Assembly: GCF_016862915.1 (NCBI RefSeq) | Contig: NZ_BONW01000050.1 | Location: 1 to 64,000, forward strand | Direction: 5' to 3' | Length of the DNA: 64,000 bases | Source of the DNA: Plantactinospora endophytica | GTDB taxonomy: Bacteria; Actinomycetota; Actinomycetes; Mycobacteriales; Micromonosporaceae | Shown here: positions 19,305 to 30,372 of the stretch, piece after piece | Position numbering within the stretch: the stretch's first letter is position 1 | How the letters are laid out: each line of letters begins with the position of its first letter | Translations under genes and position numbers: made by a program | The notes under the pieces: generated by a model | What the model saw: the letters and a program-made list of their open reading frames with translations, nothing else | Told to the model about the DNA's origin: nothing | Database searches by the model: none

Positions 19305-19670
19305 TCAGCTGCCAAGTCCGACCAGGGCCTCGATCCGGAAGATTTCGAGTTGGTCAGGATGAGGGGTGGGTGGATCCGAGTCCGGCAGGAGATCTCCAGC
19401 TTCGGCGGCCAGGCGGTCGATCGTGTCGACCGGCATAAGGAAGGCGATGTGCCAGGTCTCGTCGTCCTGGCCGATCAGGGCCGTAACGGTGTCGTCGTCG
19501 TGCGCCCAGTGCACAGGTATGCCGGCGGCGTTGCCGATCTGTAACGCGCGTCGTGCGGCCCGGTCGGCTTCGCGGATGGACTGCAGGCGGGCAACCTTGC
19601 TGAGGTGGGCGCAGAAGTGGAACTCCCGTTGACCATCGGGGGAAGGATGACAGACAGGATCCGAGGGCAT
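19305..19670 (-). pseudogene. unknown gene A, copy 1 (64-bp deletion at the start)
   Basis: Encodes the body of an unknown protein: FHFCAHLSKVARLQSIREAD, then TALIGQDDETWHIAFLMPVD and a proline-rich end. Compared with copy 2 (29452-29817), 64 bp are missing around 19620, so the ATG of copy 2 is out of frame here and the open frame runs upstream without a credible start. Its C-terminus extends EIFRIEALVGLGS beyond the copy 2 end, so this copy keeps the original 3' end. Confidence 0.45.
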
Positions 19671-20191
19671 GTGCCGGGCGTTGTGTTGGTCCGGCGTGCC
19701 CCTACGTGCCCGTATACGCGGGGGTTCCCTATGGGTTTCGTTGGGGCTCGAATGTCACCAGTGGTCGTCGAGTTCAGCGATGCGGCGGCGGAGTGCGCGG
19801 GCATCGTGCCTCGGCAGGGGATGGATGATGATGTGCAGGATGTGGCGTAGTTCGATGGGGTCGGGGCAGCAGGCGAGGACGCCGCAGCCGTTTGTCGGGT
19901 CGAACAGGCGGTGATAGGGGTCGCGGAGGAGGTGAGTCCAAGCGTCGAGGGCCTCACGTGCCGCGCCGGGCCATAGCCGGGTTCGTTCGAGTTGGGCTAT
20001 CGCGGCGCGGCCGCGTGGGCTGAGGCCGGGGATGCTGGGGACGGGCTGGTCAAGGCGGTGGTGTGCGGCGGTGCGTACTCGCGCCGGTGACCTACGCGCC
20101 ATCGCCCTTTCTGGTGCTCGTCATGACGACCATGGTCGCACGCGGCTGATCTCATGCTGCCCTGGGCGTCGGCGGCTGGTAGGGACCTTTG
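19338..20191. repeat. segmental duplication, copy 1
   Basis: This stretch is highly similar to 29456-30372. Both copies carry the same two minus-strand unknown genes in the same order and end at the shared GGTAGGGACCTTTG. Copy 1 lacks 64 bp present in copy 2, which disrupts the first part of the left gene. Confidence 0.85.
19755..20102 (-). CDS. unknown gene B, copy 1
   Basis: A 115-residue basic protein with no recognised domain. A conserved-looking core runs through WPGAAREALDAWTHLLRDPY, FDPTNGCGVLACCPDP and RHILHIIIHPLP, ending in a helix ARALRRRIAELDDHW. The three cysteines and several histidines could bind metal. Copy 2 at 29936-30283 differs at about nine positions, including ALDAWTH/VLDAWTR and HPLPRH/HALPKQ. 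It is probably co-transcribed with gene A. Confidence 0.5.
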   Translation of the reverse strand: MARRSPARVRTAAHHRLDQPVPSIPGLSPRGRAAIAQLERTRLWPGAAREALDAWTHLLRDPYHRLFDPTNGCGVLACCPDPIELRHILHIIIHPLPRHDARALRRRIAELDDHW

Positions 20192-20242: not shown

Positions 20243-20270
20243 CTAGTGCGGTGACCGCGAAGGTTCACCG
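20243..20270. repeat. left terminal inverted repeat of the IS630 element
   Basis: 28 bp beginning CTAGTGCGGTGACCG. It pairs with 21816-21843 with three mismatches and lies 42 bp upstream of the Imm53 ATG. Confidence 0.8.
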
Positions 20271-20312
20271 GGTTGCCAGCCCAGCGGCGCAGGTCGGTTA
20301 ACATCCACGTCC

Positions 20313-20621
20313 ATGTCCGAATCCGAGCAGGTCCTTGGCTGGCTGCAGAGCTGGTATGCCTCACAGTGCGACGGCGACTGGGAACACGAGTGGGGGTTGA
20401 AGATCGAAACGCTCGACAACCCCGGCTGGTCGGTCCTGATCGACCTTGAGGAGACGGAGTTGGCGGACCGGGAGTACCCCCGGCAGCGGATCACACGGGG
20501 CGAGCACGACTGGGTGATGGCCTGGACATCCGAGAAGGCCTTCCACGTCGCGTGCGGGCCTCGCAATCTGGCCGAGGCCCTCACCCTGTTCCGTGACTGG
20601 GCATCTGAGAGCGGCCAGTGA
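20313..20621 (+). CDS. Imm53 family immunity protein, IS passenger
   Basis: A 102-residue acidic protein with the Imm53 pattern: LGWLQSWYASQCDGDWEHEW, then IETLDNPGWSVLIDLEETEL, and a C-terminal helix EALTLFRDWASE. Imm53 proteins are predicted antitoxins of polymorphic toxin systems, neutralising a cognate nuclease-type effector in the cytosol. No toxin is adjacent. It lies entirely between the inverted repeats of an IS630 element, convergent with the transposase and only 16 bp from its stop. A TAACAT hexamer at 20299-20304, eight bases before the ATG, could be a -10 giving a near-leaderless transcript. Confidence 0.85.
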   Translation: MSESEQVLGWLQSWYASQCDGDWEHEWGLKIETLDNPGWSVLIDLEETELADREYPRQRITRGEHDWVMAWTSEKAFHVACGPRNLAEALTLFRDWASESGQ

Positions 20622-20637
20622 GGCGGTGAAAGGGCCG

Positions 20638-21756
20638 TCACATGGCATGCGCCGGTCGGCCGCCCCAGCGGATGCCCTTCTCGCTGCGGACGCGGGCACG
20701 TTCACGGCGTTGAGCGGCCAGGACGTCGGGGTGGCGGGCGTTGGCGTTGCGCCAGCGCAGGTAGGCGTGCAGGGCCCGGGTCTGGGCGGTGTGGTTGCGG
20801 TGGTGGGAGTTGGCGATGGTGAACTGGCGCAGCGGGCCGAAGTGGGCCTCGATCGGGTTGGCCCAGGATGCGTAGGTCGGGGTGAAGCACAACTCGACGC
20901 GGTTCTTGCGGGCCCAGTGGCGGATCGTCTCGCCCTGGTGAGCGGACAGGTTGTCCAGGATCACGTAGATCGAGGCGCCGTCGGGCCGGGCGGTGCGGAT
21001 CGACTTGAGCGCGGCCAGGGTGTTCACGGTGCCCTTGCGCCGGCGGTTGACGCCCCACAGCCTGTCATCGCCCACCGAGTAGCAGCCGTGGAAGTACCGG
21101 ACGCCGTGAGTGCGGCGGTAGGTGGCCGGCAGCCGCTGCGGGTGTCCCTGCGCTGCCCAGCCCGCACTGGCGGTGGGGCGGATCCCGAGCGGCCCGAACT
21201 CGTCGAACGCGAAGACCCGCTGCGGGAACCGGTCCAGGACCTCTTCGATCCGGTCGAGCTTGGCGTCGCGGTCGGGGTCCGAAGACTCCTTCCACGTCTT
21301 GGTCCGCTGGAACGTCACGCCACGGCGGGCCAGCAGACAGCGCAGGGCCTCGCGGCCGATGCGGATGACCCGTCCGTGGACTCTGCGCAGGTAGGCGGCG
21401 AGTTTGCGTAGCGACCAGCGGGTGAACGGCTGGCCGAGCTTGACCGGGCGGGTGGTGGCCGTCGCGACGACGAAGTCCTCGTCGTCAGGACTGAGCAGGC
21501 GGGGACGGCCTCCCGCCCACTGAGATTCCAGGCAGGCCAGGCCGATCTGATTGAACCGGTGGATCACGTCACGGACGGTGTCCTCGTCGGCCTAGACCAG
21601 TTGGGCGATGACCGGGACCCGGTTGCCGCCCGCGGATGCCAGCAGCATCATCGCGCGCCGGTAGCGCACCGAACTGGTGCTGCCCCGCCGCACGATCTGC
21701 TGCAGCTTCTGCCCTTCCTGGTCGGTCAACCTGCGTACACGGACAGGCTCGGCCAC
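20638..21756 (-). pseudogene. IS630-family transposase with one nonsense codon
   Basis: Reading from GTG 21756 gives a full IS630 transposase except for one in-frame TAG at about 21593 (QLV*ADEDTVRDV, probably a CAG to TAG change). The N-terminal helix-turn-helix region is before and around the stop; the DDE core follows: FAFDEFGPLG (first Asp), YVILDNLSAHQ (second Asp) and WANPIEAHFG (Glu). Either the element is now immobile or the lower frame from 21567 is expressed as an N-truncated protein lacking DNA-binding sequence. Confidence 0.85.
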
Positions 21757-21787
21757 CTTGCCTCCAGGTGTCGGATCGGATGTCGGG

Positions 21788-22339
21788 CTACATCCAATCG
21801 CGACAACCGCTAACACGGCGAACCTTCCCGGTCACAGCACTAGCTAGGCGCAGGACGTGGAGGTGCTCGTCGTGTACCAGTCCGTCGCCGAACCGCTTGT
21901 GAGGCGGAAGCACCTTTTCCAGCGTGAAGCCCGCTGCGCGGGCTACGCGGCACGATGCCACGTTCTCGACCGCGTGGGTTAGGGCGATCCGGTCGAGGCG
22001 CAGCGCCGTGAACGCCCATTCCGACAGCGTGCGCAGGCAGGTCCTGGCGACACCGCGCCCGCGTGTCCATGGGGCCACCCGGTAGCCGACATACGCGGAC
22101 CTGCCATGCCAGTTGATGTCGTGCAGGCTGATTGTGCCGGCGTAGGCGCCGGTGGCGTCGTCGATGATCGAGAAGGTGGTGTGGGTGCCGTCGGACCAGT
22201 CGGCACCCGTCAGGCAGTCGGCGATTGCGGCGGCCTCGTCGGGGATCTGGCAGCGCGGGTTCCACAGCCGCACGTCCGGATCGCCGGCAAGTGCCAGGAC
22301 GGCGGGCGCCTCGCCGACGTGGGGCGGTCGCATCAGCAT
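21788..22339 (-). CDS. GNAT-family N-acetyltransferase, C-terminus altered by IS630
   Basis: About 183 residues of a RimJ/RimL-type GNAT. The strand TTFSIIDDATGAYAGTISLH is followed by VGYRVAPWTRGRGVARTC, which holds the acetyl-CoA pyrophosphate loop, and by the late motif NVASCRVARAAGFTLEKVL. I place the start at ATG 22339; residues like VELRAAG just upstream suggest coding may once have begun earlier, but the frame would run into the enolase gene. The last 16 residues (AVTGKVRRVSGCRDWM) come from the IS630 end and replace the original tail. It probably acetylates a protein N-terminus or small amine. Confidence 0.75.
   Translation of the reverse strand: MLMRPPHVGEAPAVLALAGDPDVRLWNPRCQIPDEAAAIADCLTGADWSDGTHTTFSIIDDATGAYAGTISLHDINWHGRSAYVGYRVAPWTRGRGVARTCLRTLSEWAFTALRLDRIALTHAVENVASCRVARAAGFTLEKVLPPHKRFGDGLVHDEHLHVLRLASAVTGKVRRVSGCRDWM
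21816..21843. repeat. right terminal inverted repeat of the IS630 element
   Basis: 28 bp ending CGGTCACAGCACTAG. It pairs with 20243-20270 and overlaps the altered 3' end of the GNAT gene. Confidence 0.8.
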
Positions 22340-29451: not shown

Positions 29452-29817
29452 CTAGAAGGTTTCGGATTGGTCAGGATGAGTGGTGGGTGGATCCGGGTCT
29501 GGCAGGAGGCCTCCAGCTGCGGCGGCCAGGCGGTCGATCGTGTCGACCGGCATGAGGAAGGCGATGTGCCAGGTCTCGTCGTCGTGGCCGATCAGGGCTG
29601 TGACGGTGTCGCCGTCGTACGCCCAGTGCACCGGTATGCCGGCGGCGTCGCCGATCTGCAACGCGCGTCGCGCGGACCAGTCGGCTTCGCGGATGGACCG
29701 TAGGCGGGCAACCTCGCTGATGTGGGCACAGAAGTGGAACTCCCATGATGGCGCTTGCAGCATCACCATGACGACCGCTGGATCGTCCGCGCTGCGGTCG
29801 ATCATCACGTTGACCAT
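29452..29817 (-). CDS. unknown gene A, copy 2
   Basis: About 121 residues from ATG 29817 (MVNVMIDRSADDPAVVMVML), with no recognised domain. The core matches copy 1: SIREADWSARRALQIGDAAG, then TALIGHDDETWHIAFLMPVD. The ATG lacks a clear Shine-Dalgarno. Its stop (TAG) is formed by the CTAG at the IS701 boundary, giving an end ETF instead of the EIFRIEALVGLGS tail of copy 1. It is therefore probably truncated by about ten residues. Confidence 0.5.
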   Translation of the reverse strand: MVNVMIDRSADDPAVVMVMLQAPSWEFHFCAHISEVARLRSIREADWSARRALQIGDAAGIPVHWAYDGDTVTALIGHDDETWHIAFLMPVDTIDRLAAAAGGLLPDPDPPTTHPDQSETF

Positions 29818-30372
29818 CGGGGAAGGATGACAGACATGATCCGAGGGCATGTGCCGGGCGTTGTGTTGGTCCGGCGTGCCCCCTACGTGCCCGCACACGC
29901 GGGGGTTCCCTATGAATTTCGTCAAGGGTCGAATGTCACCACTGGTCGTCGAGTTCAGCGATGCGGCGCCGCAGTGCGCGGGCATCCTGCTTCGGCAGGG
30001 CGTGGATGATGATGTGCAGGATGTGGCGTAGTGCGATCGGGTCGGGGCAGCAGGCGAGGACGCCGCAGCCGTTTGTCGGGTCGAACAGGCGGTGATAGGG
30101 GTCGCGCAGGAAGCGAGTCCAAGCGTCGAGCACCTCACGTGCCGCGCCGGGCCATAGCCGGGTTCGTTCGAGTTGGGCTATCGCGGCACGGCCGCGTGGG
30201 CTGAGGCCGGGGATGCTGGGAACGGGCTGGTCAAGGCGGTGGTGTGCGGCGGCGCGTACTCGCGCCGGTGACCTACGCGCCATCGCCCTTTCTGCTGCTC
30301 GTCATGACGACCATCATCGCACGCAGTCGATCTCATGCCGTCCTGGGTGTCGGCGGCTGGTAGGGACCTTTG
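29456..30372. repeat. segmental duplication, copy 2
   Basis: Highly similar to 19338-20191 but with 64 extra bp at about 29745-29808. The left edge coincides with the right end of the IS701 element, and the right edge is the shared GGTAGGGACCTTTG. Flanking sequences outside the segment are unrelated. Confidence 0.85.
29936..30283 (-). CDS. unknown gene B, copy 2
   Basis: A 115-residue basic protein nearly identical to that at 19755-20102. Shared core: RLFDPTNGCGVLACCPDP then LRHILHIIIHALPKQDARA. Both copies of this gene stay open while gene A decayed in copy 1, hinting that gene B is the one under selection; that is inference from two sequences. It lies 118 bp upstream of gene A on the same strand. 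Confidence 0.5.
   Translation of the reverse strand: MARRSPARVRAAAHHRLDQPVPSIPGLSPRGRAAIAQLERTRLWPGAAREVLDAWTRFLRDPYHRLFDPTNGCGVLACCPDPIALRHILHIIIHALPKQDARALRRRIAELDDQW

Follow-up and report, generated by a model that had tools for sequence, protein, structure and literature searches.

Insertion sequences (ISs) that carry passenger genes are said to have been grouped as transporter ISs (tISs) by Siguier, Gagnevin and Chandler in 2009. The concept is already in print in passages of PMC9330008, PMC3129680 and PMC7986276, and a passage of the last of these names one tIS member for the IS6 family. As these passages present it, a tIS holds a lone transposase and an unrelated passenger within one pair of ends and moves as a unit. 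Imm53 (PF15580) is introduced in the relevant part of PMC3482391 as a polymorphic-toxin immunity protein paired with Ntox24 and Ntox10 toxins. Immunity genes may also occur without their toxins: a section of PMC5361080 describes type VI secretion clusters with horizontally acquired arrays of orphan immunity genes from which the toxin is absent.

The window analysed here, the whole stretch of 64,000 nucleotides of Plantactinospora endophytica DNA, holds an element that resembles each of these systems in part. It shares with the tISs of those passages the lone transposase and the unrelated passenger within one pair of ends; the difference is that in its IS630 clade cargo is usual, the contents of the slot are unrelated and immunity genes are recurrent. 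With the IS630 family it shares the DDE_3 and HTH_32 domains, the CTAG ends and plain relatives of about 1.24 kb, but it is about 0.35 kb longer because of an Imm53 passenger. As in the type VI arrays, at least as that section describes them, the immunity gene comes without a toxin and by horizontal acquisition, whereas those arrays involve replacement at a fixed locus and the window element the transposition of a self-contained unit. No title or abstract among the matches listed from the open literature (subscription journals and ISfinder lie outside it) describes an IS630 clade with usual cargo and recurrent immunity genes.

The window element and its passenger

We read positions 20243-21843 with high confidence as a tIS in which inverted repeats enclose a transposase and a passenger Imm53 gene, and which is part of a clade with swappable passengers. 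Its features are as follows.

20243-21843, whole element of IS630 type, 1601 bases, with inverted ends
20243..20274, plus strand, left terminal inverted repeat, begins CTAG
20299..20304, plus strand, -10-like box TAACAT, 8 nt upstream of the Imm53 start
20313..20621, plus strand, Imm53 family immunity gene (passenger), 102 aa, intact
20638..21756, minus strand, IS630-family transposase gene, GTG start, nonsense codon at 21592-21594
21812..21843, minus strand, right terminal inverted repeat, ends CTAG
21844..22330, minus strand, GNAT acetyltransferase gene (target flank), last codons apparently displaced by the insertion

The preliminary description had reported 28-bp repeats alike at 25 of 28 positions, each with a terminal CTAG, around an element some 0.4 kb over normal length. 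Realignment of the ends gave the same 25/28 for the outermost positions (28/32 overall), with CTAG at both ends, whereas the best score among 12 shuffles of the two end regions (300 bases each) was 19/28. Likewise, 294 kb of sequence obtained by single-base shuffling of 40 of 80 relatives' loci contained no end-like site (five mismatches or fewer). The excess length comes to about 0.35 kb when the 1601 bases are set against the 1242-1253 of plain relatives. The inverted repeats (25/28) flank a transposase in which the part after the nonsense codon matches DDE_3 (PF13358; 59.6 bits, cut-off 28.6), the catalytic domain, and the helix-turn-helix family HTH_32 (PF13565; 48.9 bits, cut-off 33.7), in agreement with the IS630 family. 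A composite transposon was ruled out, as the element has a single transposase and not two complete flanking IS copies. A phage origin was also considered, and no match was found among 50,697 phage records.

The Imm53 gene lies within the same ends and is unrelated to transposition. Its product matches PF15580 over nearly its full length (E=4.7e-33, 113.3 bits, cut-off 25), and the W, WE, PGW and W motifs given for Imm53 in the part of PMC3482391 that treats it are visible in the protein. The two genes are convergent, with stops 16 bases apart, so that coordinates and Pfam bear out the arrangement first reported. The difference from the Imm53 of polymorphic-toxin systems is that the window gene rides an IS, with no recognised toxin family beside it: none was recognised among the nearby window proteins scanned, and a search of the same genome for Ntox24 gave no match, with controls equally silent. 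The likeliest role of this Imm53 would be protection from toxins made by others. In an alignment by eye of 20 Imm53 genes associated with the IS, 15 have TAGCAT at the position of the -10-like box, which suggests a putative short-leader or leaderless promoter travelling with Imm53; the passenger thus probably has its own promoter.

The transposase contains a single in-frame stop, at codon 55 (21592-21594; X in the translation), the one nonsense codon previously noted. The element is single in its own genome (9.7 Mb in 90 contigs, an assembly that may have collapsed repeats), where the sole other match to it covers 231 bases at 67%. Since the transposase is broken and the copy is single in the assembly, the window copy is probably stranded and immobile by itself, and the earlier suggestion that it may be trapped now appears likely.

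IS630 elements insert at TA/CTAG with duplication of the TA. Here the element sits at the 3′ end of the GNAT gene. From position 21846 the flank is matched by a damaged GNAT paralogue elsewhere in this genome, an independent support for the right edge. This paralogue (L216; contig 57, 11000-13600) is a partial damaged copy, 90% identical over 391 bases with gaps. To the left, about 0.9 kb (19338-20191) is duplicated some 10 kb away at 29455-30372 with 91-93% identity, the second copy having about 60 extra bases; this match ends about 52 bases short of the element, so that independent support for the edges exists on the right side only, and neither duplicate supplied an empty site with a collapsed CTAG.

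Relatives of the element

A BLASTN search of 72,556 plasmid records matched 154, of which 142 are from Streptomyces. Six plasmid loci were opened. Two (L023 and L024) enclose Imm53 between their ends, though not on the side of the transposase where the window has it; three have Imm51 (L025), DUF6368 (L027) or a methyltransferase (L028), and L026 is a plain copy of 1243 bases. The genome contigs were surveyed by transposase, taking the best 80 of 389 relatives and accepting ends with at most five mismatches, relaxed to eight where no better end existed (L086 and L109). Within these best 80, both ends are recognisable at 72 loci, and 59 of the 72 contain 0.35-2.6 kb of extra internal DNA, which in 58 of the 59 follows the transposase stop. 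The 13 plain elements (1242-1253 bases, among them L086 with one poor end and L070 with a further good end beyond) end 37-49 bases past the transposase. Of 33 copies compared, all except L085 and L108 have CTAG at both ends. When flanks were joined at a collapsed CTAG for 55 of the 72 elements (four from plant-pathogenic Streptomyces and 13 with too little flank were left aside), the reading frames were indistinguishable, because stop-free frames are long in G+C-rich DNA.

The query alignment of this first census had been built mostly from cargo carriers, and a second sample was therefore drawn by transposase. It comprised 22 places, spread over 12 of 61 Streptomyces genomes; both ends are present at 15 of the places, and 14 of these 15 have extra DNA while one is plain. 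Eight of the 15 were already among the earlier loci (L257, L259 and L261-L264 are first-set loci, L258 is the element of L027 and L267 that of the Imm51 locus L227); six of the seven new elements carry extra DNA, one of them with a truncated transposase. The genus of the window has a plain copy, L003, which is 1245 bases long. The transposase nearest to that of the window is L075 from Catellatospora (92%), where an apparent gene of no known family lies 5′ of the transposase, bounded by a poor end (six mismatches). Members of this clade occur in Streptomyces and related actinomycetes, and most of them carry a swappable passenger.

Movement of the cargo with the element

The proposal that the immunity gene is a passenger moving with the IS is supported in relatives of the window copy, itself single, because identical element-plus-cargo copies sit in unrelated flanks. 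Three Imm51 units (L119, L121 and L122) are 100% identical over 1657 bases, two units of 1944 bases (L063 and L065) are also 100% identical, although the right flank of L063 amounts to one base, and the 2015-base units of L097 and L100 are 99.8% identical; all lie in unrelated flanks. Units with the same cargo in different species are 85-98% alike, with no flank match within 500 bases. For Imm53, a single genome has two copies that match at 96.4% over 1547 bases; on one side the match runs to the end of the element, and on the other it breaks off 50 bases short of the end, at a rearrangement in the second copy. Eight full-length elements, including that of the window, have Imm53 inside their ends, and a Streptomyces plasmid element with the same arrangement and a broken transposase (L142) has its outer end 69 bases before Imm53; the alternative that Imm53 lies only in the host flank at this locus was not what we found. 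Among the relatives no intact second copy of the exact window arrangement was found, those that share it being ruins.

The tight packing of the two stops, 16 bp apart, and the repeated association of Imm53 with the IS would also fit a gene kept for the sake of the element, serving the transposase as an addiction or regulatory partner. We regard this as very improbable: one strain has five identical plain copies without a passenger, the passengers form many unrelated clusters, and the position and orientation of Imm53 vary between elements.

Imm53 and Imm51 as recurrent passengers

A search of 392 Streptomyces genomes found PF15580 in 42 of them, at 42 places in all. Within flanks of 1.5-3 kb, an IS of the window type or its remains lies near 16 of the 42 (15 of 41 without the centre genome), four of the 16 having a full-length transposase and both ends, and 26 of the 42 are without the IS. 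In Micromonosporaceae, the family of the window, the IS adjoins none of 27 other Imm53 places, some of which are fragments. Imm51 (PF15595) occurs at 18 places in 17 of 295 genomes, with the IS at eight of the 18: it is present at eight of the 11 places at least 76% identical to the IS-borne form (two of them by an end with six or seven mismatches alone), compared with none of the seven below 76%. Among 19 control loci from unrelated queries, the only IS signal came from the locus overlapping the window element. In addition, 17 Leptospira plasmid records have Imm53-like genes (two to six places each among those listed), which are mostly annotated as immunity proteins.

On the IS, Imm53 takes one of three arrangements. 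In the convergent one, that of the window and of Streptomyces ruins, the gene follows the transposase; in the divergent one it precedes the transposase, and in the co-directional one it again follows. A transposase tree made by a quick method places Imm53 on about five transposase lineages. The distance from Imm53 to the outer end is -69/-70 in four of five convergent cases (L188, -98), +363/+364 in six of eight divergent cases (L144, +388; L187, +383) and +358 to +364 in four co-directional ones. The smallest well-supported group that includes the window Imm53 comprises nine rows (support 98/97), namely six convergent genes, two Streptomyces genes without IS remains and one of the window's family, and 16 of 21 other rows of that family form a clade elsewhere; the tree has few columns and many of its forks are open. 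Since the window gene groups with IS-borne genes of Streptomyces, it was probably imported, from a Streptomyces-type pool. The Imm53 pairs are mostly under purifying selection, with dN/dS of 0.08-0.22 in 12 of 15 pairs; the remaining three (0.35, 0.56 and 0.99) are all at low dS. Paired with each of four relatives of the same arrangement, the window gene gives values of 0.155-0.22.

These observations bear on whether the window configuration arose by chance, a plain IS630 having landed beside a resident Imm53 with a solo end happening to lie beyond. Such an intermediate is seen at L070, which has good ends 49 and 613 bases past the transposase, and solo ends and ruins are common. A chance origin is nevertheless very unlikely, considering that the Imm53-to-outer-end distance is similar within each arrangement, that full-length Imm53 elements in different genomes have different bases outside their ends, that identical cargo units repeat within genomes, that the window Imm53 falls outside the main lineage of its family, and that second intact copies at other sites were found for the sister Imm53 arrangements. 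We thus retain the reading as a tIS.

Diversity of the cargo

The preliminary description had advised a search for other small genes in this slot, and such genes turned out to be common among the relatives. Length and codon-position G+C served to call the cargo genes, and some calls are wrong (L067 and L118, which are antisense, the former to Imm53; L091, L094 and L114, a transposase tail); L089 is doubtful, and the slot of L095 mostly reads like another transposase. With an ABC pair counted once, 26 named families match cargo proteins above curated cut-offs, and nine of 40 scanned cargo proteins have no family match. Five of the families are immunity families (Imm53, Imm51, MafI, CdiI_3 and SUKH). 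Viomycin and chloramphenicol phosphotransferases both exceed NCBIfam equivalog cut-offs, whereas D-Ala-D-Ala dipeptidase-like and LD-carboxypeptidase-like proteins have a Pfam match only and lie under the NCBIfam cut-offs. Other cargo comprises an APH-like kinase, an ABC-2 exporter pair, GNATs, MarR, HxlR and hydrolases, as well as an OMP decarboxylase, S1, DUF6368, a pentapeptide protein, a luciferase-like enzyme and others. Anti-phage defence models gave no match among ten proteins (nine cargo proteins and the window Imm53).

The viomycin phosphotransferase belongs to a clade element of Streptosporangium sandarakinum (L111, 4594-5535; NCBIfam equivalog 428 bits, cut-off 400). A recurrent cargo protein of 213-234 aa accompanies one transposase lineage in five strains (L077, L081, L087, L108 and L134); searches of Pfam, NCBIfam and PADLOC found nothing for the copy in L077. 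We consider this protein a candidate protective protein of an unrecognised family.

When mapped on a 90-row transposase tree (seven rows unlabelled), the cargo labels require 48 changes, for a minimum of 41 and a shuffled mean of 66.7; on this comparison, cargo is inherited for a time but is exchanged as well. S1, MarR plus hydrolase, AAA_33, Imm51 and Imm53 each change more than once. We may wonder at this stage whether the cargo is neutral baggage that an undiscriminating element picks up by chance, protective genes no more than others. Many cargo families are indeed housekeeping or of no known family, and the OMP decarboxylase, the S1 protein and the luciferase-like enzyme are not obviously protective. 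Against this stand the presence of five immunity families, the frequency of Imm53 (about 0.11 per Streptomyces genome, 42 in 392, compared with two of 59 cargo units, although this is not a full background count), its occurrence at some five points of the transposase tree and the purifying selection in most Imm53 pairs. Neutral carriage is, in our judgement, rather unlikely.

A possible route of capture

The slots themselves suggest how passengers may be taken up. At nine of them the outer end is like the plain IS over at least 45 bases, past the repeat itself. The outer 214 bases of L096 are the 3′ end of a second copy, with a decayed inner end retained; in L120, L103, L126 and L079 the outer 46-73 bp are an inverted 5′ end, and in L084, L092, L101 and L067 the outer end is a direct 3′ end. 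Decayed inner ends are also found in L068, L069, L078, L080, L025 and L027. Because of these IS-like outer ends and decayed inner ends, a second end beyond the neighbouring gene seems to take over. Capture would probably begin when a gene comes to have a complete copy on one side and, on the other, a further end that belongs to another copy or its ruin; the inner end would then decay, and the outer pair would define a larger unit. At L070 (4608-5230), a lipoprotein-like gene unmatched in Pfam stands between a plain copy and a second good end, a possible cargo unit in formation.

Passage from one backbone to another may use the promoter of the passenger. The -10-like box of Imm53 reads CTAGCAT in the co-directional L140, where the inner end of the element lies directly against it; several divergent copies have CTAG, the target, within this box. 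A copy thus probably landed at this site and re-mobilised an Imm53 gene that was still attached to an old end. Once carried, the passenger may guard its carrier from the toxins of neighbours, which would explain the repeated recruitment of Imm53. The clade as a whole may then be a shared cassette system for single protective genes, with one backbone and one slot, in which a pool of immunity and self-resistance genes is captured, passed between backbones when a new copy lands at CTAG in the promoter of stranded cargo, and spread across genera without the toxins; we give this wider proposal an even chance of being right.

It is usually unclear by what means immunity genes spread in the absence of their toxins. 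The window element represents a minimal vehicle, a 1.6-kb unit of one transposase and one immunity gene in a passenger-swapping clade. By the ends of such elements, one can trace how toxin immunity and antibiotic self-resistance spread in streptomycetes. Finally, reading the contents of the slot is a way to find new immunity genes, several small slot proteins matching no known family.
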